Made by a program: the position numbers and the translations under genes. A stretch of 18,522 nucleotides of DNA from an uncultured Desulfobacterales bacterium. Lineage in GTDB: Bacteria; Desulfobacterota; Desulfobacteria; Desulfobacterales; JAFDCJ01. The stretch lies in NCBI GenBank assembly GCA_945787595.1, contig CALZJV010000209.1, positions 1 to 18,522 on the forward strand, written 5' to 3'. Positions within the stretch are counted from its first letter, which is position 1. Every line of letters begins with the position of its first letter. The notes below the pieces were generated by a model. That model was not told the DNA's origin. It was given only the letters and a program-made list of their open reading frames with translations, and ran no database searches. Positions 4-18,516 of this stretch are shown here, piece by piece.

Positions 4-1920
4 ATGAGTAAAAAAAAAGCTTTTTTCCTGATTCTGTTCAGTCTTGAACTGGCCCTGCTGATCCCCCTCGGCATTTCCCAGCTGCCGAATACGGCCACCA
101 CCCGACACATTGCAGTTGATGCCCGCCGGTTCGCCTATGCCCCTTCACGCCTGGTGGTGAACAAGGGCGACACTGTAATCCTGAAGTTCTCTACTTCGGA
201 TGTCACCCACGGTCTGCAGCTAGACGGCTACCCGATTGAACTGATTGCCAGAAAAGGCACTACTTTCCGCAAGCATGACTGGATAGAGGATAAGGGCCAC
301 CTGCAAACCAACTGGAGCCGCGTCTCTTCCGTCAAAATTAGGGCATTGCGGTCAGGGAAGTTTATCTTCCGCTGCACCGAAACCTGCGGCAATTTGCATC
401 CCTTCATGACCGGTGAGCTGGTGGTCAGACCCAACACCCCGTATCATTTTTTCCTGGCGCTCTCTGTCTGGATCGTATTTACCGTGTTTGTCCTGATGCG
501 GTTTAAAAACCCGGGCGAATTCAAGCGAATTAATATCCTGGAAATATTCCCCCCGCTAAAAAGGCTGGTGATGCGTCGCAGTTTTCAGTTTTGGTTTATC
601 GCGGTCAATTTTGTCGTGTTTTATCTGTTTATCCTCAGCAGCCTGTGGGGCAGTCCGGTGGGCAACCGTAATATTGCCATTGTATTTGTTTGGATCCTGT
701 GGTGGTTTATTCTCAAGGCGGTTCTGGTGCCTCTGGGAGGCAGGCTGTGGTGCCTGATGTGCCCGCTGCCGGGGCCGGCCGAATGGTTGTCCCGCAAAAG
801 ATTGACAGCTGTCAAATATTTTAAAAAGCCTTTCCGCAAACTGCATCACCGTTATCTCGGCCTCCAAAAAGACTGGCCGATAAAGCTGCGAAATATCTGG
901 CTGCAAAATATTCTGTTTTTGGTCCTGATTTCTTTCGGTATGATTCTGATTACGCGACCGTTGGCAACAGCCCTTGTCTTCATAATAATTCTGGCAGGTA
1001 CCCTGATTCTGGCACTTATTTTCCGCCACCGGGTCTTTTGCCTGTATCTATGTCCGGTGGGCGGCTTTTTAGGCACCTATTCCATGGCATCCATGACTGA
1101 AGTGCGCGCCATCGATCGCGATGTCTGCAAAAAACACAAAGATAAATCCTGTTTAACCGGTGGCCCCGATGGTTGGGCCTGTCCCTGGAATCAATATGTC
1201 GGCAATATGAACCGCAACAACTATTGCGGGCTGTGCACCGAATGCATTAAAAGCTGCCCCAAGGATAACGTCGGTGTCTTTATCAGACCATTTGGCTCCG
1301 ATAAAGCACTAAAAGGCTATGATGAAATGTTCAACGTGATTATCATGCTGGTGGTGGCCATTGCTTTCAGCATCACCATGCTAGGCCCGTGGGGGTTTAT
1401 CAAAGATGCCGCCAACGTTACCGAAAGCAAACAGATCGTTCCTTTTCTCATCTACCTGGTGACAATCTGGAGTTTCGCCCTGCTAATCGTACCGGGTTTC
1501 TTTATGCTGGTGGCAAAGGCAGCCGGTCGCCTATCCAGAGTCGAATTAAATCGCCGCCTGCTGACCCTACGGTTGGCCTATATTCTCATACCGATCGGAA
1601 TCTTTGCCTGGATAGCCTTCAGCCTGCCGACCATCATGATTAACTACGGTTATATCATCGCGGTCTTTTCCGATCCGCTAGGTTTGGGGTGGGATCTTCT
1701 GGGAACCGCCGACACTCACTTTAAAGCGCTCATACCGGACTGGATACCGGTAATTCAAGGTGTTGTGCTGCTGGCCGGGCTGTATCTGGGATTGAGCCGC
1801 GGGTTTATGGCTCTCAGAGATTTGTTGCCGGACACAAATTCACAAATCCGGGCCATGCTTCTCCCGGCTCTTTTCGCTCTTGTTATGGTTAATATATTAT
1901 TGAAACTGTATATGGGATAA
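4..1920 (+). CDS. CuA-type cupredoxin fused to NapH/NosR-like Fe-S membrane protein
   Basis: Polytopic membrane protein of 638 residues, probably passing electrons between a periplasmic copper centre and iron-sulfur clusters. Residues 6-24 form a signal/anchor helix. Residues 35-142 form a cupredoxin domain whose ligands match the binuclear CuA pattern of cytochrome oxidase subunit II and NosZ: H69, then C124-x-E126-x-C128-x3-H132-x2-M135. About ten further hydrophobic segments follow. C250-x2-C253-P and C346-x3-C350-P resemble the paired CxxxCP motifs of NapH/NosR. A ferredoxin motif C408-x2-C411-x2-C414-x3-C418-P binds one [4Fe-4S], and C375, C383 and C393 may help a second. In NosR the exported N-terminal domain binds FMN; here a CuA domain takes that place. 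The gene ends 229 bp before napD on the same strand. The window begins 3 bases before the ATG, so its ribosome binding site is barely visible. Domain calls are firm; the physiological partner is inferred. Confidence 0.85.
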   Translation: MSKKKAFFLILFSLELALLIPLGISQLPNTATTRHIAVDARRFAYAPSRLVVNKGDTVILKFSTSDVTHGLQLDGYPIELIARKGTTFRKHDWIEDKGHLQTNWSRVSSVKIRALRSGKFIFRCTETCGNLHPFMTGELVVRPNTPYHFFLALSVWIVFTVFVLMRFKNPGEFKRINILEIFPPLKRLVMRRSFQFWFIAVNFVVFYLFILSSLWGSPVGNRNIAIVFVWILWWFILKAVLVPLGGRLWCLMCPLPGPAEWLSRKRLTAVKYFKKPFRKLHHRYLGLQKDWPIKLRNIWLQNILFLVLISFGMILITRPLATALVFIIILAGTLILALIFRHRVFCLYLCPVGGFLGTYSMASMTEVRAIDRDVCKKHKDKSCLTGGPDGWACPWNQYVGNMNRNNYCGLCTECIKSCPKDNVGVFIRPFGSDKALKGYDEMFNVIIMLVVAIAFSITMLGPWGFIKDAANVTESKQIVPFLIYLVTIWSFALLIVPGFFMLVAKAAGRLSRVELNRRLLTLRLAYILIPIGIFAWIAFSLPTIMINYGYIIAVFSDPLGLGWDLLGTADTHFKALIPDWIPVIQGVVLLAGLYLGLSRGFMALRDLLPDTNSQIRAMLLPALFALVMVNILLKLYMG

Positions 1921-2057
1921 AATAAAGATAACTAAATTGTTTAAGTCATCGTGATCAAAAAAACTCTTTCGCAACTATCTGTTTAGAATACATTATTCAT
2001 AATTCAAAAATACGTATTTTGCCCTATTTTTATTCTGTGTAATTTTGATATGGATTT

Positions 2058-2071
2058 TTGACTTAAGTCAA
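2058..2071. promoter_or_regulatory. FNR/CRP-family operator palindrome upstream of napD
   Basis: TTGACTTAAGTCAA is a perfect 14-bp palindrome with the half-site spacing (TTGAN-N4-NTCAA) of FNR/DNR-type regulators. It lies 79 bp before the napD start in AT-rich DNA. A weak -10-like TAGATA sits at 2090-2095, so the site falls near the activator position of class II promoters. Anaerobic or nitrogen-oxide control of the nap genes is inferred. Confidence 0.6.
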
Positions 2072-2149
2072 GGATTTAATCATACTTGTTAGATAGGAAA
2101 TAGCCAAACCTCATTCAACACATCATAATAATCGTTTTATGGAGAACCA

Positions 2150-2377
2150 ATGCCCGTATTCAGCTACCTGGCATATCCTAAACAGGGCGCAAAGAAGGAA
2201 CTGCTCACTGATCTCGCAGCCCTTGAATACTGTGAAGCGACGCCGGCCGATAATGAAAATATCCTGATCCTAATAACCGACACACCGGATGAAGAATCGG
2301 AGAAGGCGTTGCAGAAAAAGCTTAAGAAATTAAAAACATTGGAATCTCTTGGCATGACCTTCGGGCATGTGGATTAA
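2150..2377 (+). CDS. napD: NapD-like chaperone for periplasmic nitrate reductase
   Basis: Small cytoplasmic protein of 75 residues, slightly shorter than typical NapD (about 80-90). It has the NapD layout: a short beta strand at residues 3-8, a helix, an ILILIT strand near 40-45, a charged helix and a C-terminal strand. NapD binds the Tat signal peptide of NapA and delays export until the molybdenum cofactor is inserted. The ATG is preceded by GGAGA at 2141-2145. It lies 68 bp upstream of the napA start, which strongly supports the assignment because sequence identity in this family is low. It probably begins the transcript driven from the palindrome at 2058. Confidence 0.8.
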   Translation: MPVFSYLAYPKQGAKKELLTDLAALEYCEATPADNENILILITDTPDEESEKALQKKLKKLKTLESLGMTFGHVD

Positions 2378-2432
2378 CCTGAACTGAGCGTTTCAATTTT
2401 AAAAATTAGGATAAATAAACCGTGTCTTTAGC

Positions 2433-2439
2433 AAAGGAG
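2433..2439 (+). promoter_or_regulatory. Ribosome binding site fixing the napA start
   Basis: AAAGGAG lies 6 bases before ATG 2446. It picks that ATG over an in-frame GTG at 2422, which would overlap the ribosome binding site and place eight extra residues before the Tat signal. Confidence 0.75.
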
Positions 2440-2445
2440 TGGCAC

Positions 2446-4761
2446 ATGAGTATCACCAGAAGATCATTTATCAAAACCCTGGCATTAAACAGTGCCGCGG
2501 CAGCCGCAGCGACCCTGTTTCCGGGAATCAGCTTCAGCGCTTGGAAAAATGTAGATTCATCTGCGGGAGGGATTGAATGGAAAAAGACGCCCTGCCGGTT
2601 TTGCGGTACCGGATGCGGTCTGCTGGTGGGTGTATCCGGCGATCGGGCAGTGGCCGTCAAAGGCGATCCCAATTGTACCGTCAACAAGGGGCTGTGCTGC
2701 GTTAAGGGCTACCATTCCGTCCAGATCCTTTACGGCAAGGATAGAATCACCAAAGCCCTGGTTCGCAAAAACGGCAAGCTGGTGGAAACACCCCTGGAAG
2801 AAGCCCTTGACCTGGTGGCCAGCAAAATGCAGGAAACGATCAAGAGCCACGGGAAAGACGCCGTGGCCATGTACGGGTCCGGGCAATGGTCGATTTCCGA
2901 CGGGTATGTGGCCTCCAAGCTATTTAAAGGCTGTATCGGGACCAACAACCTGGAAGCCAATGCGCGACTGTGCATGGCCAGTGCGGTAACCGGCTTTTTG
3001 ACCAGTTTCGGACTGGACGAACCCATGGGCAGCTATGACGACATCGATCACGCCGATGTGTTTATTACCTGGGGCAATAATATGGCCGAGATGCATCCGG
3101 TGCTTTTCTCCAGAATGCTTGCCAATCGCAAAAGCAAAGGCCATGTCAAAATCATCGATTTTGCCACCCGCAGCACTCGCAGCAGCCAGGCATCGGACAG
3201 ATCAATCCTTTTTAAACCCCAGACGGACCTGGCTGTGGCCAATGCCATCTGCTATGAAATCATCCGCAACGACTGGGTCAATTGGGATTTTGTCAATAAG
3301 CATGTTTCCTTTCATAAAGGTAAAACCAACATCGGCTATGGGACCGAGGACCATTTCAAGTTCAAAGACAAAGCCGAAACCGTTGACTTTGAGCAGTATA
3401 AAGAATTTCTGGCGGATTACACGCCGGAGAACGTTGAAAAAATATCCGGCGTATCTGCCAAAGACATCAGGTACTTAGCTTCGCTATACGGAGACCCGGA
3501 TAAAAAAGTGGTTTCTTACTGGTGCATGGGGATGAACCAGCACACCCGGGGGACCTGGATCAACAACCTGGTCTATAATTGTCATCTGCTGGTGGGCAAG
3601 ATTTCCCAACCGGGCAATGGCCCGTTTTCTTTGACCGGTCAACCGAGCGCCTGCGGTACGGTGCGTGAAGTCGGCACCCTTACCCATAAGTTGCCTCATG
3701 GCGTCGTCACGAATGAAAAAGCGCGCAAGCTGGCCGCTAAAATTTGGGACGTGCCGCTGGAAAACATCGATCCCAAACCGACCTATCATACGGTTGAGAT
3801 GTTCCGGGCTCTGGACCGGGGAGATATCCGTTTCATGTGGGTGCAGGTCACGAATCCCATGGTCACCATGCCCAATTTGAATCGCTACCGGGACGGCGCC
3901 GAAAAGGACGATCGCTTCATGGTGGTATCCGAAATATATCCCACCCCCACCTACGATGTGGCCGATGTGGTCCTGCCGTCGGCCCTGTGGATCGAGCGCG
4001 AAGGATTTTTCGGCAACTCAGAGCGGCGCACCCAGCACAATGAGCAGATTATTCCCATGCCGGGTGAATGCATGAGCAATACCTGGCAGATCATCGAGGT
4101 GGCGCGACGAATGGGCTTTGAGAAACAATTTCCCTGGTCTGAAGAAACCTACATCGAAGACATCTGGAATGAATATATTCAGTTTCACGATTCCCCCAAG
4201 CACAGAATGGCATCTTACAAAGTGCTTAAAGCGCGATCGGGTGTTGTGTGGCCCTTCGTTGATGGACTGGAAACCAAATGGCGCTACAACGCTAAATATG
4301 ACCCGGCCGCCAAGCAGGATGATTTCCATTTTTACGGCAAACCGGATAACCGGGCCTGGATTTGGCTGAGGCCATACGAGCCGGCCGCAGAATCACCTGA
4401 CAGTGAGTATCCTTTCTGGCTCAATACCGGACGTATCCTGGAGCACTGGCATACCGGCTCCATGACCCGGCGTGTTCCGATTTTACATAAAGCCGCTCCG
4501 GAATCCTATGTGGAGATCAATCCCGATGATGCATCCGGATTGGGCATCACCAACGGCAGCAAAGTGAAAATATCCTCCCGCAGGGGCTCGGTGGTAATGA
4601 AGGCCAGCATCAACGAGCGGGGCCGCCCGCCACAGGGAATGGTTTTCGTTCCGTTCTTTGACGAGAGCTATTTGATCAACGAGGTAACTTTGGACGCATT
4701 TTGCCCTATATCCAAACAGCCGGACTATAAAAAATGCGCTGTCAAACTGGAGAGAGTATGA
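2446..4761 (+). CDS. napA: Periplasmic nitrate reductase catalytic subunit NapA
   Basis: Molybdoenzyme of 771 residues that reduces nitrate to nitrite in the periplasm. The N-terminus is a Tat signal (TRRSFIK, then an alanine-rich stretch). A [4Fe-4S] site follows at C50-x2-C53-x3-C57, with the fourth cysteine at C85 (C84 is adjacent). NARLCMASA supplies the molybdenum ligand C176, and the FGLDEPMG and EMHPVLFSR stretches are characteristic of NapA rather than formate dehydrogenase. The C-terminal molybdopterin-dinucleotide domain begins at the segment [18 protein letters not shown]. The frame is intact and the length normal. The stop codon overlaps the next gene's start (ATGA, 4758-4761), implying translational coupling to the cytochrome. 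Catalytic activity is inferred from conserved residues only. Confidence 0.95.
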
Positions 4762-5441
4762 TGGAAACGTCAGACAAAAAGGTGGGAAAAGTATTTCTCG
4801 TTTTTGCCGGTCTCTGTATCATTGCCTTACCCCTGGTCGTGATTTCGGCGTTCTCCTTCCAACCAAAGGAGATGGAAACGGCTGCAATAGGTGCTCAGAG
4901 CCTTGACTTTGATCAGCAGGGGGAAACCATATTCATAGACTATGACAAGCTATCCAGCGAATATCTGGCGGGTGTATCTTCCGAACGGACCCTCAGCGAC
5001 TACTACTCACGCAGGCAGTATCCAGGGTCTCCGCCCTATATCCCGCATAAGGTTGAAGAACCTGATTTAGCCCGGGTTGAGTGCCTTGCCTGTCACGCCA
5101 GGGGCGGTTGGTCGGAAGAGCTTAAAAGACACACACCCATAACGCCCCATCCGGAACAGGAGGCCTGCCGGCAGTGCCATATCGCAATGACCGGCAAAGA
5201 ACTGTTCGTTGACATTGACTGGCGCAGCGTCGCAACGCCCCGCCTGGGCCGATCTGAACTGCCCGGCGCTCCGCCTCCCATTCCGCATGAACTTCAGATG
5301 AGAGGCAACTGTATCGCATGCCATGTGGGACCGGGGGCGGTGACGGCCATTCGAGTGGAGCATCCCTCGCGGGGGAATTGCCGGCAATGTCACGTACCGG
5401 ATACCAACGTTAAACCGTTTCAGCGGAATTCAAAATCATAA
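4758..5441 (+). CDS. Tetraheme c-type cytochrome made of two NapB-like diheme units
   Basis: Membrane-anchored periplasmic cytochrome of 227 residues. A helix at residues 10-33 anchors it. Four CxxCH motifs are at 109-113, 137-141, 185-189 and 208-212. The protein looks like an internal duplication: PGSPPYIPH (89-97), CLACH, HP (131), CRQCH is mirrored by PGAPPPIPH (169-177), CIACH, HP (202), CRQCHVPD. The PP-x-IPH...CxxCH...CxQCHVP order is that of NapB, the diheme electron donor of NapA, which normally has only two hemes. The start ATG 4758 overlaps the napA stop and follows GGAGAG at 4749-4754; ATG 4761 is an alternative. It probably delivers electrons directly to NapA. Confidence 0.88.
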
Positions 5442-5509
5442 CACGGTCCAGTCAGAACCAAAAACAGACACAACAATTTGAAATAACCGCTGAGTAAAAC
5501 AGGGACGTC

Positions 5510-6133
5510 ATGAAGACAACAATCTATAAAAAGTGCCTTTTCGGGACAATTGCTTTACTGCTCGTTATCTTTGCGGGGTGGACCGCGTATTCCGAGCAAG
5601 GCGGTGTCAGCCAGATCTATAAAAATGCAATTGCGCCGTTTGATGATAAAAAGCGCGTCCAATCCGTCCTGGCGCTGCCGGATGACACCGTTGTGGTCCG
5701 GACAAGATACCAGGGGGGACTTTTTTGGACCGAAACCCGAAAGGACAAGATAGAGCGCTTTAAATGCAGCCAATGTCATAACAATAAATCTGTCAATGTT
5801 GCCCTGGCTGCTGAAATGGCCCATGGTGATATCAAGCTGGATCATGGCGACCGGCAAAAACCACTTTCCTGTTTCACATGTCATAATAAAGAGGAGCGTG
5901 ATTCTTTGGAAACCGAAGCAGGTGTCAAAGTGGATATGGATCACAGCTACCAGATGTGCGCTCAGTGCCATTTCAGACAGTTAAAAGACTGGGTGGGCGG
6001 TGCGCACGGCAAACGCGTTGCTAACTGGGCCGGCAAAAGGGTCGTCAATAGCTGTGTATCCTGTCACAATCCCCACTCTCCGCGCTTTGAAAAACGTTGG
6101 CCGGTAACGTATTCACCGCCTTTTAAAGAATAG
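5510..6133 (+). CDS. Tetraheme c-type cytochrome, NapM-like position
   Basis: Periplasmic cytochrome of 207 residues held by an N-terminal signal/anchor (residues 8-27). Heme motifs are CSQCH (86-90), CFTCH (121-125), CAQCH (150-154) and CVSCH (182-186). Additional histidines such as H105, H112, H145, H166 and H189 could be axial ligands. It is unlike the NapB-type repeat of its neighbour. It occupies the place of NapM, the extra tetraheme cytochrome in Desulfovibrio nap clusters, but I cannot establish orthology by eye. AGGGA lies at 5501-5505 before the ATG. The 68-bp gap to the upstream gene shows no terminator. Likely role: carry electrons between the NrfC-like protein and the NapB-like cytochrome. 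Confidence 0.82.
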   Translation: MKTTIYKKCLFGTIALLLVIFAGWTAYSEQGGVSQIYKNAIAPFDDKKRVQSVLALPDDTVVVRTRYQGGLFWTETRKDKIERFKCSQCHNNKSVNVALAAEMAHGDIKLDHGDRQKPLSCFTCHNKEERDSLETEAGVKVDMDHSYQMCAQCHFRQLKDWVGGAHGKRVANWAGKRVVNSCVSCHNPHSPRFEKRWPVTYSPPFKE

Positions 6134-6142
6134 GGAATTAGA

Positions 6143-7114
6143 ATGAATCCCCCGAAAAATCAAAATTGTCAAAAGCCTAAAGAAAGCAACCACCGCCAGG
6201 GCAAACCGTGCGGGCGCCGGGAATTTCTCAAAGGAGCCGCAAAAGTAGCCGCTCTGGGCGGCGCCACTATGCTTACCGGGTGTGGAACCGAAGCATTTGG
6301 TTCAAGTGAAGAGCTCAAATTACGGTTTCAGGAATTCTTTAAAAAAAATTACCGTCTCATGACCCCGGAGGAAAAAGACGAAACCATACGGCGCCTTGAG
6401 CGGCTAGCCAAAATGAGAAGAGGCGTCGATGTCCGGATGAGCTCCAAGGCGCCCATAGAGAATGTTTTATTCGGTTATGCCTTTAATGTCACCCGCTGTG
6501 AAGGTTACATGGAATGTGTGGCCGCCTGCGTCAAGGAGAATAACCTCGACCGCAAGTCCAATACACAATATATCCGCATATTTGAAATGGAGCACGGCCA
6601 AATGTCTCCTGAGGTCGGCAACGGCAAATACTTCCATGAAGTGCCGGTTGAGGATCATTTCTATATGGGTGTTCAATGTTTCCACTGTGAAAGTGCCCCG
6701 TGCATCAAGGCCTGTCCCACAAAAGCCACCTGGAAAGAGCCCGATGGAATTGTCGTCGTGGACTATGACTGGTGCATCGGATGCAGGTATTGTATGGCGG
6801 CCTGCCCCTATTACGGGCGTCGCTTCAACTGGAACGAACCCCAGGTACCCTCCGAGGAAATGACCAAAAAGCAGCATTATCTCGGCAACCGGATGCGCGC
6901 CAAGGGACAGATGGAGAAATGTACCTTTTGCGTGCAAAGGAGCAGAGAAGGCAGACTTCCCGCCTGTGTCGAGGCCTGCCCCACCGGTTCAAGGGTGTTT
7001 GGAAATCTGCTCGACCCCAAAAGTGAAATCAGGTTTGTCCTGAAGCACAAGAAGGTTTTCAGGTTTAAGGAGGATCTGGGAACGGATCCAAAGTTCTGGT
7101 ATTTTATTGACTAA
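6143..7114 (+). CDS. Tat-exported NrfC/DmsB-like multi-cluster ferredoxin subunit
   Basis: Periplasmic iron-sulfur protein of 323 residues. GRREFLKG (24-31) is a Tat motif, and LTGC (44-47) right after the hydrophobic segment could be a lipobox. Clusters: C179-x2-C182-x4-C187-x3-C191-P; C211-x2-C214-x2-C217-x3-C221-P; C260-x2-C263-x11-C275-x3-C279-P. The first ferredoxin motif is incomplete: C119, C125 and C129 are present, but tyrosine 122 stands where the second cysteine should be, so this site may hold a [3Fe-4S] cluster or use another ligand. The segment MTPEEKDETIRRLERL (73-88) is a helical N-terminal extension. The family passes electrons from an NrfD-type membrane subunit. The start at 6143 follows AGGGA (6132-6136), 9 bp after the cytochrome gene. 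Confidence 0.88.
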   Translation: MNPPKNQNCQKPKESNHRQGKPCGRREFLKGAAKVAALGGATMLTGCGTEAFGSSEELKLRFQEFFKKNYRLMTPEEKDETIRRLERLAKMRRGVDVRMSSKAPIENVLFGYAFNVTRCEGYMECVAACVKENNLDRKSNTQYIRIFEMEHGQMSPEVGNGKYFHEVPVEDHFYMGVQCFHCESAPCIKACPTKATWKEPDGIVVVDYDWCIGCRYCMAACPYYGRRFNWNEPQVPSEEMTKKQHYLGNRMRAKGQMEKCTFCVQRSREGRLPACVEACPTGSRVFGNLLDPKSEIRFVLKHKKVFRFKEDLGTDPKFWYFID

Positions 7115-7124
7115 GATAGGTTTT

Positions 7125-7315
7125 GCCGGTTAGCCGGTTGGGCCGGTTGACCGGTTAGACAATGTATTCTTTCGATTTCAACGGGCTCAACGGAAAAACG
7201 GTCCAAACGGGCTTAACGGGCTCAACGGACTCAACGGGCCAACGGGCTAAACCGACAAACCGGCTCAACGGACTAACGGACCAACGGGCCAACCGGCTCA
7301 ACGGAGCTCAAGAAA
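7125..7315. repeat. Degenerate short-repeat tract with inverted halves
   Basis: Block 7125-7157 has four CCGGTT-containing units of 8-10 bp. Block 7179-7315 has a dozen or more AACGG(G/A)CY-type units of 8-9 bp. AGCCGGTTGG (7132-7141) is the exact reverse complement of CCAACCGGCT (7289-7298), and pairing extends with a mismatch and a bulge, so the transcript could fold into a long hairpin between the nrfC-like and nrfD-like genes. The tract is open in the nrfD frame, but the translation is low-complexity and lies upstream of a better start. Confidence 0.8.
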
Positions 7316-7321
7316 GGTCGC

Positions 7322-7328
7322 AGGAAAA
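7322..7328 (+). promoter_or_regulatory. Ribosome binding site fixing the nrfD-like start
   Basis: AGGAAAA lies a few bases before ATGATG at 7333. It supports initiation there instead of at ATG 7162, which would translate the repeat tract into 57 extra low-complexity residues not seen in the family. Confidence 0.6.
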
Positions 7329-7332
7329 AGTT

Positions 7333-8571
7333 ATGATGGAAAAGTCTCCTGATAAAGGAATTGTATCGTTTGTTACGGATGCCATTGTATGGAACCTATC
7401 CGGCGGTATCGGCTATCAGATTTATCTGTGTTGTTTAGCCGTAATGGTGATGCTTGGTGTCTATGCCTATTCCGTTCAAACGCACTTAGGCCTTGCTGCC
7501 ACCAATATGTCCGATATCGTCAGCTGGGGATTTTATATCGGCAATTTTACGTTTCTGGTGGGCGTGGCGGCGGCAGCTGTTATGTTGATATTACCTGCTT
7601 ATATGTTCCGTGACAGGGATCTGCACAAGGTGGTCATCATCGGTGAAGGTGTGGCCAATGGGGCCCTGGTGATGTGCCTTTTGTTCATTGTAGCAGATAT
7701 GGGAGGCCCCTTGAAGCTCTGGCATCTGATACCGGGTATCGGGATTTTTAATTGGCCTTCATCGCTGCTCACGTGGGATATCATCGTATTAAACGGTTAT
7801 CTGGCCCTCAACCTGCTGGTACCTGCCTATATCCTTTATTGTCAATATAACAATCGTGAACCTGATGAAAAAAAATACCGTCCTTTTGTTTTTCTATCAA
7901 TTTTCTGGGCCTTTTCAATTCACCTGGTAACGGCCTTTTTGTATCAGGGGCTGCCAGCCAGGCCTTTCTGGAATAATCCTTTGATGGGTCCCCGGTTTTT
8001 AGCATCCGCCTTTGCGGCCGGGCCGGCTTTGATAACCGTGGTACTGGTAATTGTTCATACTGCCACTACATTTAAAATCGAAAAAGAGACCTTTAACAAG
8101 CTGAGGCTGATCATTGTCATTTCCGCAATAATTAATCTCATCATGCTCTTTTCCGAGATTTTCAAGGAGTTCTACCTACCCACCCACCACAGTCTGCCGG
8201 CTATTTATCTCTATTTCGGTCTCGACGGTCACTCCGCCCTGGTCCCCTGGATCTGGACCGCAATCAGCCTGAACCTTTTAGGCACGTTGACCCTGATCTG
8301 GAACCCGGGCAAGAATAACCCCAAAGTGCTACTTCCGGCCTGTGTGTTGCTTTTTATCGGTATCTGGATCGAAAAAGGCATGGGATTGATTGTGCCGGGA
8401 CTGGTCCCTTCACCTTTGGGGGAAGTGATTAATTACGCACCCAGTTGGGTGGAGATCTGTGTAGCGATAGGCATTCTAGCGGTCGGCATGTTTGTTGTCA
8501 CCCTGCTGATCAAACCGGCTTTGATAATCGAGCAGCGGTTTGAATCGTATCAGCGATCGGAAACAGGCTAA
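7333..8571 (+). CDS. NrfD/PsrC/HmcC-like quinol-interacting membrane subunit
   Basis: Integral membrane protein of 412 residues with about ten hydrophobic segments, the length expected for NrfD/HmcC/DsrP-type proteins. Family-like stretches include WGFYIGNFTFLVG (66-78 region), DIIVLNGYLALNL, PLMGPRFLASAFAAGPALI and IEKGMGLIVPG. Such proteins exchange electrons and protons with menaquinol and pair with an NrfC-type ferredoxin, here encoded immediately upstream. No heme ligand motif is obvious. Because the cluster lacks NapC, this subunit is the best candidate for quinol oxidation in nitrate reduction. Direction of electron flow is inferred. It ends the nap-type gene group. Confidence 0.88.
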   Translation: MMEKSPDKGIVSFVTDAIVWNLSGGIGYQIYLCCLAVMVMLGVYAYSVQTHLGLAATNMSDIVSWGFYIGNFTFLVGVAAAAVMLILPAYMFRDRDLHKVVIIGEGVANGALVMCLLFIVADMGGPLKLWHLIPGIGIFNWPSSLLTWDIIVLNGYLALNLLVPAYILYCQYNNREPDEKKYRPFVFLSIFWAFSIHLVTAFLYQGLPARPFWNNPLMGPRFLASAFAAGPALITVVLVIVHTATTFKIEKETFNKLRLIIVISAIINLIMLFSEIFKEFYLPTHHSLPAIYLYFGLDGHSALVPWIWTAISLNLLGTLTLIWNPGKNNPKVLLPACVLLFIGIWIEKGMGLIVPGLVPSPLGEVINYAPSWVEICVAIGILAVGMFVVTLLIKPALIIEQRFESYQRSETG

Positions 8572-10586: not shown

Positions 10587-11501
10587 ATGAAAACAACCAT
10601 CCTTATTGGAATAATAATAACTAGTATGCTTATTTTAGTAGGATTTCAAAAATCTAACAATCTGCAGGGAAAAATGGATACTACCATGGATAAAAAACAG
10701 AAGAACCTGTCTGAAGCTACTTTCGCCGGCGGTTGTTTTTGGTGTACGGAGTCGGATTTTGAAAAATTTGACGGAGTTGTTGAAGCCATATCCGGTTATG
10801 TCGGCGGACAGACCCAAAATCCCACCTACCAGGAAGTGTCGGCCGGAGGTACCGGGCATGCTGAAGCGGTTCGAGTCCTTTATGATCCGCAAAAGATTAC
10901 CTATACTGAATTGCTCGATATCTTCTGGCAGCACATGGACCCGACCGATCCCGACGGGCAATTTGTCGACAGAGGCTCCCAGTATCGACCGGCTATATTT
11001 TATCATGATGAAGAGCAAAAACGTCTGGCTGAGGAATCCAAAAGAAAACTTGAATCTTCCGGCCGGTTTAACAAATCCATCGCAACTGAAATCGTCCCGA
11101 TTTCTGAATTTTACGAGGCCGAAGACTATCACCAGGATTACTATAAGAAAAATCCGTTGCGATATAAATTTTACCGGCATAATTCCGGCCGGGATCAGTT
11201 TCTGAAAAAAACATGGAGCGACACGGCGCAACCGGCGGCCGGAGGGGACACCCAAGCAGCCTATTCAAAACCCGACGATAACGTGCTGAAAACGAAACTA
11301 ACGTCGCTGCAGTATAAAATTACCCAGCAAGAAGGCACTGAACCGCCCTTTAGAAATGAATACTGGGACAATAAAAAGGAAGGTATCTACGTCGACATCG
11401 TATCCGGCGATCCTGGAAAAAGAGGATCGCAGCCTTTTTGGGGTTCGCACCGAGGTGAGAAGCAAACATGGCGATTCTCATCTCGGGCATCTTTTTCCTG
11501 A
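10587..11501 (+). CDS. msrA: Exported peptide methionine sulfoxide reductase MsrA with broken MsrB tail
   Basis: Reduces methionine-S-sulfoxide in proteins. The N-terminus (1-19) is a hydrophobic signal or anchor, placing the enzyme outside the cytoplasm. The MsrA domain spans about 43-210 with the GGCFWC active site (catalytic C50, possible resolving C53), GYVGG, the GHAEAV motif and YHQDYY. After a linker an MsrB domain begins at about residue 232 ([37 protein letters not shown]), then the reading frame departs from the family and runs on to a stop at 11501. The rest of MsrB continues in another frame. GGAGGG at 10575-10580 supports the start. MsrA should function; MsrB as read lacks its catalytic cysteine. 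No other gene overlaps on this strand. Confidence 0.88.
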
Positions 11502-11634
11502 TGGGCCGGCACCTACCGGCCTGAGATACTGTATCAATTCCGCCTCCTTGAAGTTCATCCCCAAAGAAGCGCTGCAAAAAGAGGGATATGACGGATATGT
11601 GCGTCTTTTTGAAACCAGCAAAGCGGCCAATTAA
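11356..11634 (+). pseudogene. Frameshifted C-terminal remnant of MsrB
   Basis: In the +1 frame relative to the upstream reading, recognisable MsrB sequence runs from about 11412: [39 protein letters not shown] and [14 protein letters not shown]. It includes the catalytic cysteine in RYCINSAS. The segment that should join it to SGDP, roughly 25 residues containing the G-W-P-S-F stretch, is absent. The join is at about 11410-11415, where ATCCT fits both the upstream and downstream readings, so deletion between short direct repeats is plausible. Residues before the join in this frame are meaningless. A sequencing or assembly error is the main alternative. Confidence 0.8.
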
Positions 11635-14985: not shown

Positions 14986-15405
14986 ATGAAAAAGAAACGT
15001 ATCGCATTTGCAATGCCAATATTTCTCATTTGTCTTGGGTTCGTTTTATCTGCCCAGAGTGCCCAGGATAGCACCCGTATCATAGCGGTCTCGGCCAAAG
15101 AGGCGGCAGATCTAATTGAAAAACACAAGGGGGATGAGGATTTCGCCATTCTTGACATTCGAACCGCGGGTGAATTTCAATCCGGTCATCTTGCCAAATC
15201 CATCCTAATTGATTTTTACTCGAAAAACTTTGCTGACCAATTAAGCCGGTTGGATAAGGAAAAAACATTTCTGATCTATTGCCGCTCCGGCAACCGATCA
15301 ACCAAGTCCATAGAATTATTTAAGAAACTGAAATTTAAAAAAGTTTATCACATGGCATCCGGAATCAGGGTCTGGAAAGATGAAGGTTTCTCGGTCGTAA
15401 AGTAG
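14986..15405 (+). CDS. Exported single-domain rhodanese
   Basis: Sulfurtransferase-fold protein of 139 residues. Residues 1-25 form a cleavable signal peptide (KKKR, hydrophobic core, SAQSA), so the mature protein is periplasmic. The rhodanese domain spans about 32-138 with LDIRTAGEFQSGHL (56-69) and the active-site loop CRSGNRS (99-105) carrying C99. Single-domain rhodaneses move sulfane sulfur to acceptors or cyanide; the substrate is unknown. AGAGG at 14972-14976 precedes the ATG. The next gene, 157 bp downstream, encodes a membrane-anchored thioredoxin-like selenoprotein, so joint work in extracytoplasmic sulfur or thiol chemistry is plausible but inferred. Confidence 0.9.
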   Translation: MKKKRIAFAMPIFLICLGFVLSAQSAQDSTRIIAVSAKEAADLIEKHKGDEDFAILDIRTAGEFQSGHLAKSILIDFYSKNFADQLSRLDKEKTFLIYCRSGNRSTKSIELFKKLKFKKVYHMASGIRVWKDEGFSVVK

Positions 15406-15489: not shown

Positions 15490-15562
15490 TAAAATAATAG
15501 GCTTACGCTGAAAACTCCACGACCCTTCAATCAGGTGAAATTATACAGTCGAGGTGTATCCA

Positions 15563-16201
15563 ATGAGGTTGCATCCACAACGTAAATGGAAACCGGCCAT
15601 ATGTGCGGTCATTATTTTAATAGGGGTCTGGGCTATATTACCTATCGGGATGAGCTACTTGTTTGATTCCGGTGATACAATCGGATTGCGTCCTGCGTTG
15701 GCAGAGATGCAGTATGGCATTCTTGGCCAGCTAGCCCCGGAGCTGAATCTGACTAACTGGATCGATGGCGATGGAAAGCCGATGGATCCGGTCAAATTAA
15801 ACGATTACCGTGGCAAGGTGATCTTTCTGTATTTTTTTCAGGACTGGTGACCGGGATGCCGCCGGGTGGGGTTCCCAACCCTTCAAAAATTGACGCAGGC
15901 CTTTAAAAATGTTGATCAGGTTAAATTTTTCGCGGTGCAAACGGTGTTTGAAGGTTATGACTACAATTCCCAGGACAAACTGCGCAAAAACCAGCTGGAG
16001 TGGGACTTGAAAATTCCCATGGCGCATGCACCTGGAAATCCAGGGATTCATGAAATCCCTGAGATAATGAAAAAATACCGTTCCGGCGGGACCCCCTGGA
16101 AGGTGATTATCGATCCGCAAGGTAAAGTCGTGTATAACCATTTTCATATTGAACCGCCAAAGGCTGTAGCACTCATCGAGCGGCTGCTGCCCGAAGGTTA
16201 G
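15563..16201 (+). CDS. Membrane-anchored thioredoxin-like selenoprotein (UxxC motif)
   Basis: Redoxin/TlpA-like protein of 212 residues read through an in-frame TGA at 15848-15850. Residues 11-34 form a membrane anchor, so the redox domain lies outside the cytoplasm. Before the TGA the sequence is GKVIFLYFFQDW; after it, PGC-RRVGFPTLQ continues in the same frame, so the codon falls exactly on the first cysteine of a CPGC redox motif (Sec96, Cys99). Downstream family sequence is intact: FFAVQTVFEGYDYNSQ, SGGTPWKVIIDPQGKVVYN (with the cis-proline loop TPW), up to TAG at 16199. A SECIS-like hairpin lies 13 nt after the TGA. ATG 15563 follows GAGGTG (15551-15556); GTG 15554 is rejected since it overlaps that site. 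The alternative is a nonsense mutation. Confidence 0.85.
15864..15881 (+). promoter_or_regulatory. SECIS-like hairpin for selenocysteine insertion
   Basis: GGGTGGG then GTT then CCCAACCC folds into a GC-rich stem with a small G-T-T-containing loop and one bulged A. It begins 13 nt after the TGA, so its apical loop falls about 20 nt downstream, as in bacterial SECIS elements read by SelB. The pairing is seen in the sequence; SelB recognition is inferred. Confidence 0.6.
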
Positions 16202-16432
16202 GAAAGCGATGCTTCTGTTCCAAATTACCCGAAACAATAGCTGTCCGGCTTAACGCTCACTAAGCCCCTCAGACAGTTTCAAGATTTGCAACGAAACATC
16301 CACCGGCTTTTAGCGACGACCTTTGTTTTGGCTATAGAACCGAAAAAGATTGATATTTCTTAATTTTTATCGTAATAGTAACTGTTATAATCAATGACCA
16401 ATTCAGGTAATCTAAGACGCTGAAATAAGTGG

Positions 16433-16552: not shown

Positions 16553-18250
16553 ATGAAAACTGATTACCCCAACCTCCGACTACGGGCAGAAGAATTTTTG
16601 GACAGAAATCCTGAAGCGGCTAATAAAATCCCAGCCGGTGATCTTCACAAGTTAATTGAAGATCTGCACGTTCACCAGATTGAACTTGAGATGCAGAACG
16701 AAGAGCTGCGCCGCGCGCAGCTGGAAATAGAAAAAGGACGAGATAGGTATTCCGATCTGTACGATTTTGCTCCGGTTGGCTATTTCACGATCGGCGACAA
16801 GGGGATAATTCTGGAGGCTAATTTAAGCGGTGCCAGGCTATTTAACATCGAGCGGTGCAGTTTGATAAATCTGACGTTTAATCGTTTAATTCCACCGCAT
16901 CATCAGGACAAGTTCTATCATCATTGCAACGCTGTTTTTAAAAGAAAGACAAAGCAAACCTGTGACCTGGAACTAGTGCGGAAGGACGGCACCCAGTTTT
17001 ATGCGCGGATGGAAAGCCTGGCGATTCAGGAAAAGGCTGGAAACAGCCGACAAATTCGAACGACGGTCAGCGATATTTCCGACCGGGTGCAGGCCAGGGA
17101 GTTGTTACATCAGAGCGAAGAGAAATACCGGTTGCTATTCAATGAAATGATCAGCGGATATGCGTTGCATGAAATAATTTTTGACAGCAACGGCAAACCG
17201 GTTGATTCCCTTATCCTGGAGGTAAATAAGACCATTGAGTGGCATACAGGCATAAAGAGGGATCAAATCATCGGGAAAACGGTTCGGGAAGTATTGCCCG
17301 GCACAGAGCAGGAATGGTTTGAAAAATTTGCCGAAGTGGTAATTACCGGAAATCCCATTCAGTTCGAAAACTACCATCAACAGCTCGATAAGCATTTGAT
17401 GGTATCTGCTTTCAGACTTCAGGAGGGCCAGATAGCCGCCACTTTCACAGATATTACCGATCGCAGGCGGTTTCAGAAGGAATTACAAAAGGCTCATGAT
17501 GAACTGGAAAGACGCGTTGAAGCGCGAACGGCCGATCTGGCCCTAACAAATGAGCAGCTTCAACAGGAAATAGAAGAACGCAAGCAAGCGGAGAAGGCGC
17601 TGAGTGAGAGTGAGTTGAGATACCGAACGTTGTTCGAAGTATCCACGGACGCCATCTTTTTGGAAACGTTGGAGGGGCGTATACTGCACTGCAACACCAC
17701 TGCATGTGAGATGTTCGGCTACACGAAAGAAGAACTGACGGGATTAGCTGTGGCTGATCTGGTGCCGGAGGACGTTGCGAAAACTTTACCCGATATTATA
17801 AAAAAACAAATATCAACCGGCGCTATTTTTATTGAGACAATCAACAAGAGAAAAGGTGGATACCTCTTTCCGGTCGAGGTCAGAACGCAACTTATTACGC
17901 TCGGCGAAGAGCAGCTGATCTTTGCCCACGTTCACGACATCACTGATCGTAAACAGGCAGAATCAGAGCTGCGGCGACTCTCCTCCCGGCTTCTCAACGC
18001 CCAGGAAGATGAACGCAGGCGAATCGCATTTGAGCTGCACGACGAATTGGGGCAAGATCTTACGGTTTTGAAACTTCATATAGATTCCATCAAAAGAAAA
18101 CTGCATCAGGATCAGAGGCTGCTCTTCGGGGGATGCTTAAATCATTTGCCAAACATTCCAACATTGAGATTTCGACGGATATTCAGGACACTAAAAATTT
18201 ATTCTCAAGCGAACAGCAAATCGCGGTCTATAGAATCTTTCAAGAAATAA
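16553..18250 (+). CDS. PAS-PAS-PAS sensor histidine kinase, N-terminal part of a frameshifted gene
   Basis: Cytoplasmic sensor without membrane segments. Residues 1-60 are helical (DLHVHQIELEMQNEELRRAQ). PAS domains lie at about 66-180, 188-305 and 352-468, joined by a coiled coil at 305-352 (ELERRVEARTADL). A HisKA_3 dimerisation domain of the NarX/LiaS type follows at 475-520, with phospho-acceptor H496 in ERRRIAFELHDELGQD. After KRKLHQDQRLL (513-523) the family sequence stops and the frame runs through unrelated residues to 18250. The ATPase domain continues in another frame. No response regulator lies in the window. The stimulus is unknown; the PAS domains suggest soluble redox, gas or ligand sensing. 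As read, this product lacks ATPase activity. Confidence 0.82.
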   Translation: MKTDYPNLRLRAEEFLDRNPEAANKIPAGDLHKLIEDLHVHQIELEMQNEELRRAQLEIEKGRDRYSDLYDFAPVGYFTIGDKGIILEANLSGARLFNIERCSLINLTFNRLIPPHHQDKFYHHCNAVFKRKTKQTCDLELVRKDGTQFYARMESLAIQEKAGNSRQIRTTVSDISDRVQARELLHQSEEKYRLLFNEMISGYALHEIIFDSNGKPVDSLILEVNKTIEWHTGIKRDQIIGKTVREVLPGTEQEWFEKFAEVVITGNPIQFENYHQQLDKHLMVSAFRLQEGQIAATFTDITDRRRFQKELQKAHDELERRVEARTADLALTNEQLQQEIEERKQAEKALSESELRYRTLFEVSTDAIFLETLEGRILHCNTTACEMFGYTKEELTGLAVADLVPEDVAKTLPDIIKKQISTGAIFIETINKRKGGYLFPVEVRTQLITLGEEQLIFAHVHDITDRKQAESELRRLSSRLLNAQEDERRRIAFELHDELGQDLTVLKLHIDSIKRKLHQDQRLLFGGCLNHLPNIPTLRFRRIFRTLKIYSQANSKSRSIESFKK

Positions 18251-18516
18251 TTACCAACATAAGTAAACACGCTCATGCCACCAAAGTTTCCATTGTTGGT
18301 AAAAATGAAAACAGCAAGGTTTTTTTCAGAGTGAAAGACAATGGCATAGGGTTTGATATCGAGGAGATTAATTCAGTGTATACCCCGGAAAAAGGATTGG
18401 GCCTGGCGGCCATGGCCGAGCGAGCAAAGATGCTGGACGGGTACTTTGAAATCTCCAGTCAAGTGAATTCGGGCACCATAATCGCTTTTGAGGTGCCCAT
18501 CGACAGCTCGCCCTAA
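18133..18516 (+). pseudogene. Frameshifted C-terminal HATPase_c fragment of the kinase
   Basis: Recognisable kinase sequence resumes in the +1 frame at about 18115 (EAALRGMLKSFAKH), then the ATP-binding domain: FQEIITNISKHAHA (N box), VKDNGIGFD (G1 box), KGLGLAAMAERAKMLDGYF (G2 box) and a normal C-terminus. About 35-50 residues between the HisKA_3 helix and EAALR, usually containing the second helix and the L-x-P-x-L-x-x-LGL stretch, are missing. GAGGCTGCTC at about 18115-18124 reads sensibly in both frames, so loss between short direct repeats is plausible. An ATG at 18133 after a G run could start a free fragment, but a functional separate protein is unlikely. Confidence 0.8.

Follow-up and report, generated by a model that had tools for sequence, protein, structure and literature searches.

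Redoxin-type selenoproteins with a UxxC motif, where U is selenocysteine (Sec), are already published and well populated. Table 1 of PMC13188914 gives a UxxC/UxxU "Prx-like thiol:disulfide oxidoreductase" (PF00578) and a UxxC "Redoxin family protein" (PF08534), and Prx-like 1 and Prx-like 3 are listed in PMC2398784. Here we describe a gene that joins this kind. It lies at 15563-16201 of the window, the 18,522-nt contig CALZJV010000209.1 from an uncultured Desulfobacterales bacterium (GCA_945787595.1), and is interrupted by an in-frame TGA. The gene is highly likely to encode a TlpA/ResA-like thiol-disulfide oxidoreductase, probably exported, in its Sec form, with UGA at codon 96 decoded as Sec. 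Compared by description with the families of these two sources, it matches the same Pfam domains above their cut-offs, has Sec as the first residue of UxxC, and has Cys homologues; the rarity claimed for such a protein by an earlier reading of the window, made from its letters and open reading frames (ORFs) and hereafter called the sequence-only reading, was thus overstated. With the exported thiol-disulfide oxidoreductases of the ResA/TlpA/DsbE type the product shares its predicted fold, the position of the CxxC motif and a predicted N-terminal hydrophobic helix, but Sec replaces the first Cys. The nearest solved structures by both sequence and fold were SPOA0173 (PDB 3eyt) and a C. glutamicum thiol-disulfide isomerase (PDB 3lor), at 30-33% identity. 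No model of NCBIfam release 20.0 reached its cut-off on the read-through protein: ResA (NF002854) scored 35 bits against 170, TlpA (NF047696) scored 26 against 230, and redoxin_TUGYCR (NF053656), a Sec/Cys thioredoxin-fold model, showed weak similarity over residues 75-128 (17.6 bits against 100). A literature search turned up no paper naming the clade described below or pairing UPGC with selenocysteine, which does not exclude that one exists.

The reading frame begins with ATG, contains a single in-frame TGA and ends at TAG (Table 1). Its read-through product of 212 amino acids has the TGA at residue 96, where a C-P-G-C motif would begin; the motif here reads U-P-G-C, in the context QDWUPGC. 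Pfam matches to AhpC-TSA (PF00578; 43.9 bits, cut-off 26) and Redoxin (PF08534; 30.8 bits, cut-off 26.6) extended over both sides of the TGA. The read-through protein is a redoxin/AhpC-TSA-fold protein, and T-P-W at residues 177-179 is presumably the cis-Pro loop of thioredoxin folds.

Database searches returned 153 protein matches at E <= 0.001, and the following counts cover the best 120 of these. Cys occupied the TGA site in 75 and Trp in 4; a further 36 were C-terminal halves that start downstream of the TGA, and 5 were other pieces, one of which (P0112) is an N-terminal half whose last residues are exactly FFQDW. The sequence-only reading had placed the TGA on the first Cys of CPGC, which the alignment with the 75 Cys homologues bore out, and had expected annotation as two truncated proteins, as indeed found in the 36 halves and P0112. 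The four Trp entries (P0002, P0004, P0006, P0007) could speak for an altered genetic code or a suppressor that reads TGA as Trp or Cys, with no selenium involved. Known from protein records alone, these entries appear instead to be TGA translated with another code. Two apparently intact genes of the window, NapA-like and DUF3786-like, end in TGA, and TGA therefore also works as a stop here. Moreover, a tRNA-Sec with anticodon tca was found in six of the eight genomes that share the TGA (see below), and no relative read as DNA had a Trp codon at the site. We consider such recoding very improbable.

The same TGA was found in the genomes of relatives. Among 389 genomes of the class to which the closest relative (G001) belongs, 84 had a match at E <= 0.001. 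The eight best matches covering the site (57-82% identity) each had one TGA, all at the same position, while the ninth, G074 (54% identity), had Cys and the tenth, G098, was partial and did not cover the site. An order-level draw yielded the same ten genomes at E <= 1e-20, and in a phylum draw of 395 genomes G001 was the sole match at that threshold. The families of G001, G136 and G078 contained no additional TGA genome, and no relative of the gene was found in the viral contigs searched. The closest relative, locus L001 of G001 (a Desulfobacterales metagenome-assembled genome; CAMYLH010000658.1), had 82% protein identity, and its DNA was 87.6% identical to the window across 680 gapless bases. 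The ratio of nonsynonymous to synonymous substitution rates (dN/dS) for window and G001 was 0.13 upstream of the TGA; two segments downstream of it gave 0.12 and 0.15. In comparisons with more distant genomes, dS was frequently saturated. Purifying selection acts on both sides of the TGA, where the sequence-only reading had noted well-conserved family sequence. That reading had regarded a sense codon other than Cys in close relatives, or a further degraded downstream half, as evidence against Sec. The relatives read as DNA had TGA (8) or Cys (5), and the downstream half was intact in all eight TGA relatives.

Two further explanations bear on these observations. A true nonsense mutation or an assembly error would make the gene a pseudogene with both halves still looking alive. 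The window does hold another broken gene, the MsrB part of which misses 80 nt relative to L001, and remnants of the redoxin gene occur in G200 and G098, but an identical TGA in eight separate genomes at 57-82% identity and a dN/dS still at 0.12-0.15 past the TGA leave this hardly credible. The remnants, an in-frame one lacking the active site in G200 (L067) and the C-terminal third only in G098 (L066), also count to some extent against a Sec enzyme. They show that the gene can be lost, and database entry P0060 has an internal gap similar to that of the G200 remnant. Alternatively, the upstream ORF might stop at the TGA and a second protein reinitiate at a GTG or ATG six codons on, where the 36 public halves start and where the ORF at 15866-16201 has its GTG. 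However, codon +6 was GTT, which is no start codon, in three of the nine TGA genes (that of the window and those of the eight relatives), and the second ORF is therefore no conserved separate gene. Two proteins would also sever the fold inside the active site, and the Cys homologues are single proteins; we give this explanation almost no weight. On the evidence above we therefore set aside a pseudogene or misassembly, reinitiation, and an altered code.

Among weaker matches in the 389-genome search, 14 also had one TGA, and in the one inspected, L046, it took the place of the first Cys in a TlpA-like protein. Together with the 13 others, L046 suggests that this class has several such proteins and that Sec is probably nothing out of the ordinary in its TlpA-like proteins.

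The machinery for Sec was sought in the relatives' genomes. G001 possessed selB (395.5 bits, cut-off 242), selA (612.8 bits, cut-off 268) and tRNA-Sec (59.1 bits, cut-off 47), and ARAGORN called the last as tRNA-SeC with anticodon tca. Over the eight TGA genomes, selA exceeded its cut-off in all eight, selB in seven and tRNA-Sec in six. Since selB and tRNA-Sec were also present in G074, G098 and G200, none of which carries a TGA copy that spans the site, the machinery is a general trait here and is not linked to this gene in particular. Among 14 named control genomes, selB was over cut-off in 2, selA in 1 and tRNA-Sec in 5, which shows that the tRNA-Sec cut-off is not a strict one by itself. 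Of 10 loci examined with ARAGORN, 9 (L012, L048-L055) were called as tRNA-SeC and one, L056 of G136, as tRNA-Trp. Some observations weigh against decoding as Sec: G376 had no selB over cut-off, and tRNA-Sec was not detectable in G136, which is one 3.4-Mb contig, or in G121. The Rfam model did not find it in G136 (150 of 274 candidates scored) or G121 (150 of 499), and BLAST with the G001 tRNA and ARAGORN near selB and selA were also without success. G136 contains selA and selB; its tRNA-Sec was either missed with 150 of 274 candidates scored or is divergent. To these is added that selA, selB and tRNA-Sec in the window's own organism are presumed from the genomes of relatives. Nevertheless, because the TGA is conserved, Cys and Sec are paired at the site, purifying selection acts on both sides and relatives have the machinery, the TGA very probably encodes the Sec of UPGC in a thioredoxin-fold protein that is probably exported, as the sequence-only reading had proposed.

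The sequence-only reading had also located a GC-rich hairpin where a bacterial selenocysteine insertion sequence (SECIS) should be. The hairpin exists and has comparative codon support, but the folding of the single sequence was no better than that of shuffles. A small apical loop with a guanosine is a published SECIS feature (PMC1088965), which the candidate fits. The 48 nt from the TGA aligned gaplessly in the nine sequences, and GGGTTYCCAAC was common to all of them. Gly codon +7 was GGG in 9/9 TGA genes and 0/5 Cys genes, against 10 of 116 Gly codons elsewhere in the same nine genes, and Pro codon +9 was CCA in 9/9 TGA genes and 1/5 Cys genes, against 13 of 81 elsewhere (the remainder was sampled as fixed codon ranges, which may slightly overrun gene ends). 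Three of the 27 columns with an unchanging fourfold-degenerate amino acid also had an invariant codon, and all three were among the five located in the first 10 codons downstream of the TGA (Fisher 0.0034; the region was picked after looking, and CCG at +1 also occurs in four of five Cys genes). When codons +4 to +11 were synonymously recoded and the result summed over the nine genes, 0/500 recodings folded as well (z -2.9); for codons +1 to +13 the number was 12/500 (z -2.0). The nine genes are related, hence shared codons are counted many times in this test.

Several results stand against a SECIS at this position. Gene by gene the recoding test was weak, with only G078 (0.01) and G121 (0.05) standing out of nine, and the Cys gene of G074 reached 0.06. 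The window hairpin alone folded no better than shuffles (z 0.21, 0.86, 1.51). In the covariation test 75% of cells were paired, a level that 103 of 500 shuffles also reached, and the score lay under four of six slid controls. RNAalifold favored a different pairing, and a scan of 15500-16300 with Rfam returned no SECIS at E <= 1. Comparative codon evidence is the one line that supports the hairpin. At the protein level, residue +6 was Val in eight and Met in one of the nine TGA genes, compared with His, Ser, Tyr or Arg in 70, Val or Met in 3 and Ile or Phe in 2 of the 75 listed Cys proteins. This change would fit a hairpin constraining that codon, though shared ancestry is another possible cause.

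A tree was constructed from 125 rows, consisting of the 75 Cys entries and G074, the 4 Trp entries, the 9 TGA genes as DNA, and the 36 halves; the 5 other pieces were omitted. The 13 Sec rows and 36 halves formed one clade of 49 (support 98/92), with none of the 76 Cys rows inside. The Sec form likely arose once, from a Cys (CPGC) ancestor, a direction that is not proved under the midpoint root with which the tree was drawn. Two members of the clade, P0004 and P0006, show Trp-P-G-Tyr at the site and Ser at +6, with Tyr replacing the second Cys; they are probably U-P-G-Y proteins without the second Cys.

What the enzyme does may be judged from its motif and fold. A Sec peroxiredoxin, that is, a peroxidase and not a thiol-disulfide oxidoreductase, would agree with AhpC-TSA (PF00578) as the top Pfam match and with the presence of AhpE and Bcp4 lower among the fold matches. 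The best fold matches, however, were chains of the thiol-disulfide oxidoreductase type, and the motif is UPGC (QDWUPGC), not the PxxxTxxU of the Sec peroxiredoxins as given in PMC13188914; a peroxidase is accordingly unlikely, though less remote than the alternatives set aside above. As a thiol-disulfide oxidoreductase, the product would be made by SelB and tRNA-Sec decoding UGA at codon 96, helped by a SECIS hairpin whose loop begins ~20 nt downstream. It is probably exported, to judge from the N-terminal hydrophobic helix, which was placed at residues 12-25 by a structure model with a pLDDT (predicted local distance difference test) of only 49-65 in the blocks over residues 1-50 and whose hydrophobicity was judged by eye. 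The protein would be anchored or cleaved at this helix, fold as a TlpA/ResA-type redoxin and perform thiol-disulfide exchange outside the cytoplasm through U96-P-G-C99. In the direction of catalysis that we infer, Sec96 would attack a substrate disulfide and Cys99 would resolve the product through a selenenylsulfide.

Table 1. Features of the selenoprotein locus and its neighbor (window coordinates).
Feature	Position	Strand	Basis
Putative ribosome-binding site GAGGTG	15551..15556	+	By eye, before ATG 15563; identical bases ahead of the L001 start
Very probable selenoprotein gene, 212 aa read-through, stop TAG	15563..16201	+	
Predicted N-terminal hydrophobic helix, residues 12-25 (anchor or signal peptide)	15596..15637	+	Structure model, low confidence
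TGA very probably read as selenocysteine, residue 96	15848..15850	+	Same TGA in relatives, Cys in homologues
U-P-G-C redox motif, residues 96-99	15848..15859	+	
Candidate SECIS hairpin, loop G at 15871, 20 nt past TGA	15863..15882	+	Comparative codon evidence for; folding and covariation weak
T-P-W, residues 177-179	16091..16099	+	Invariant in 59-row alignment
Exported-looking rhodanese-domain protein, neighbor	14986..15405	+	PF00581, 59.9 bits

The sequence-only reading had set the gene beside a periplasmic rhodanese. The rhodanese is real (PF00581), but ORF comparison of the nine TGA loci found it adjoining the gene in only two, the window and its closest kin L001, and found no neighbor common to all. 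The contig of G121 stops ~160 bases upstream of the gene, so that adjacency is not judgeable there. We therefore rejected the rhodanese as a conserved partner.

Elsewhere in the window, genes with molybdopterin oxidoreductase, NapB, multihaem cytochrome, Fe-S and NrfD domains stand in a row at 4-8571 and look like a periplasmic nitrate-reductase-type operon. An MsrA-MsrB fusion occupies 10587-11634; its MsrB part is short of 80 nt compared with L001, where the ORF is whole, and its frame is changed, either by a real lesion or by an assembly error. In the region 16553-18516, a PAS sensor kinase ORF (16553-18250) overlaps an ORF in another frame (18133-18516) that by eye resembles the ATPase end of a histidine kinase, and a frameshift is possible.

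It is quite possible, though slightly less likely than not, that these genes form an uncatalogued family: UPGC redoxins of a Desulfobacterales-type clade, exported and derived from one Cys-to-Sec switch. In such a family the gain of a SECIS would have forced the change at +6 (mostly His/Ser/Tyr/Arg to Val/Met) and fixed rare codons at both +7 and +9, and most of the public records would be split halves labelled hypothetical. On the Sec reading, the two broken genes that gene finders report would be a single intact selenium enzyme, of a kind that is broadly known, and public fragments (among the 120 listed, one N-terminal and 36 C-terminal halves) would be joined into one real enzyme. With an apparent single Cys-to-Sec switch and a large Cys outgroup, the cost of a SECIS inside a conserved active-site region may be readable from the codons. 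If the protein is exported, it would also be relevant to the question why these anaerobes invest selenium in the extracytoplasmic space.
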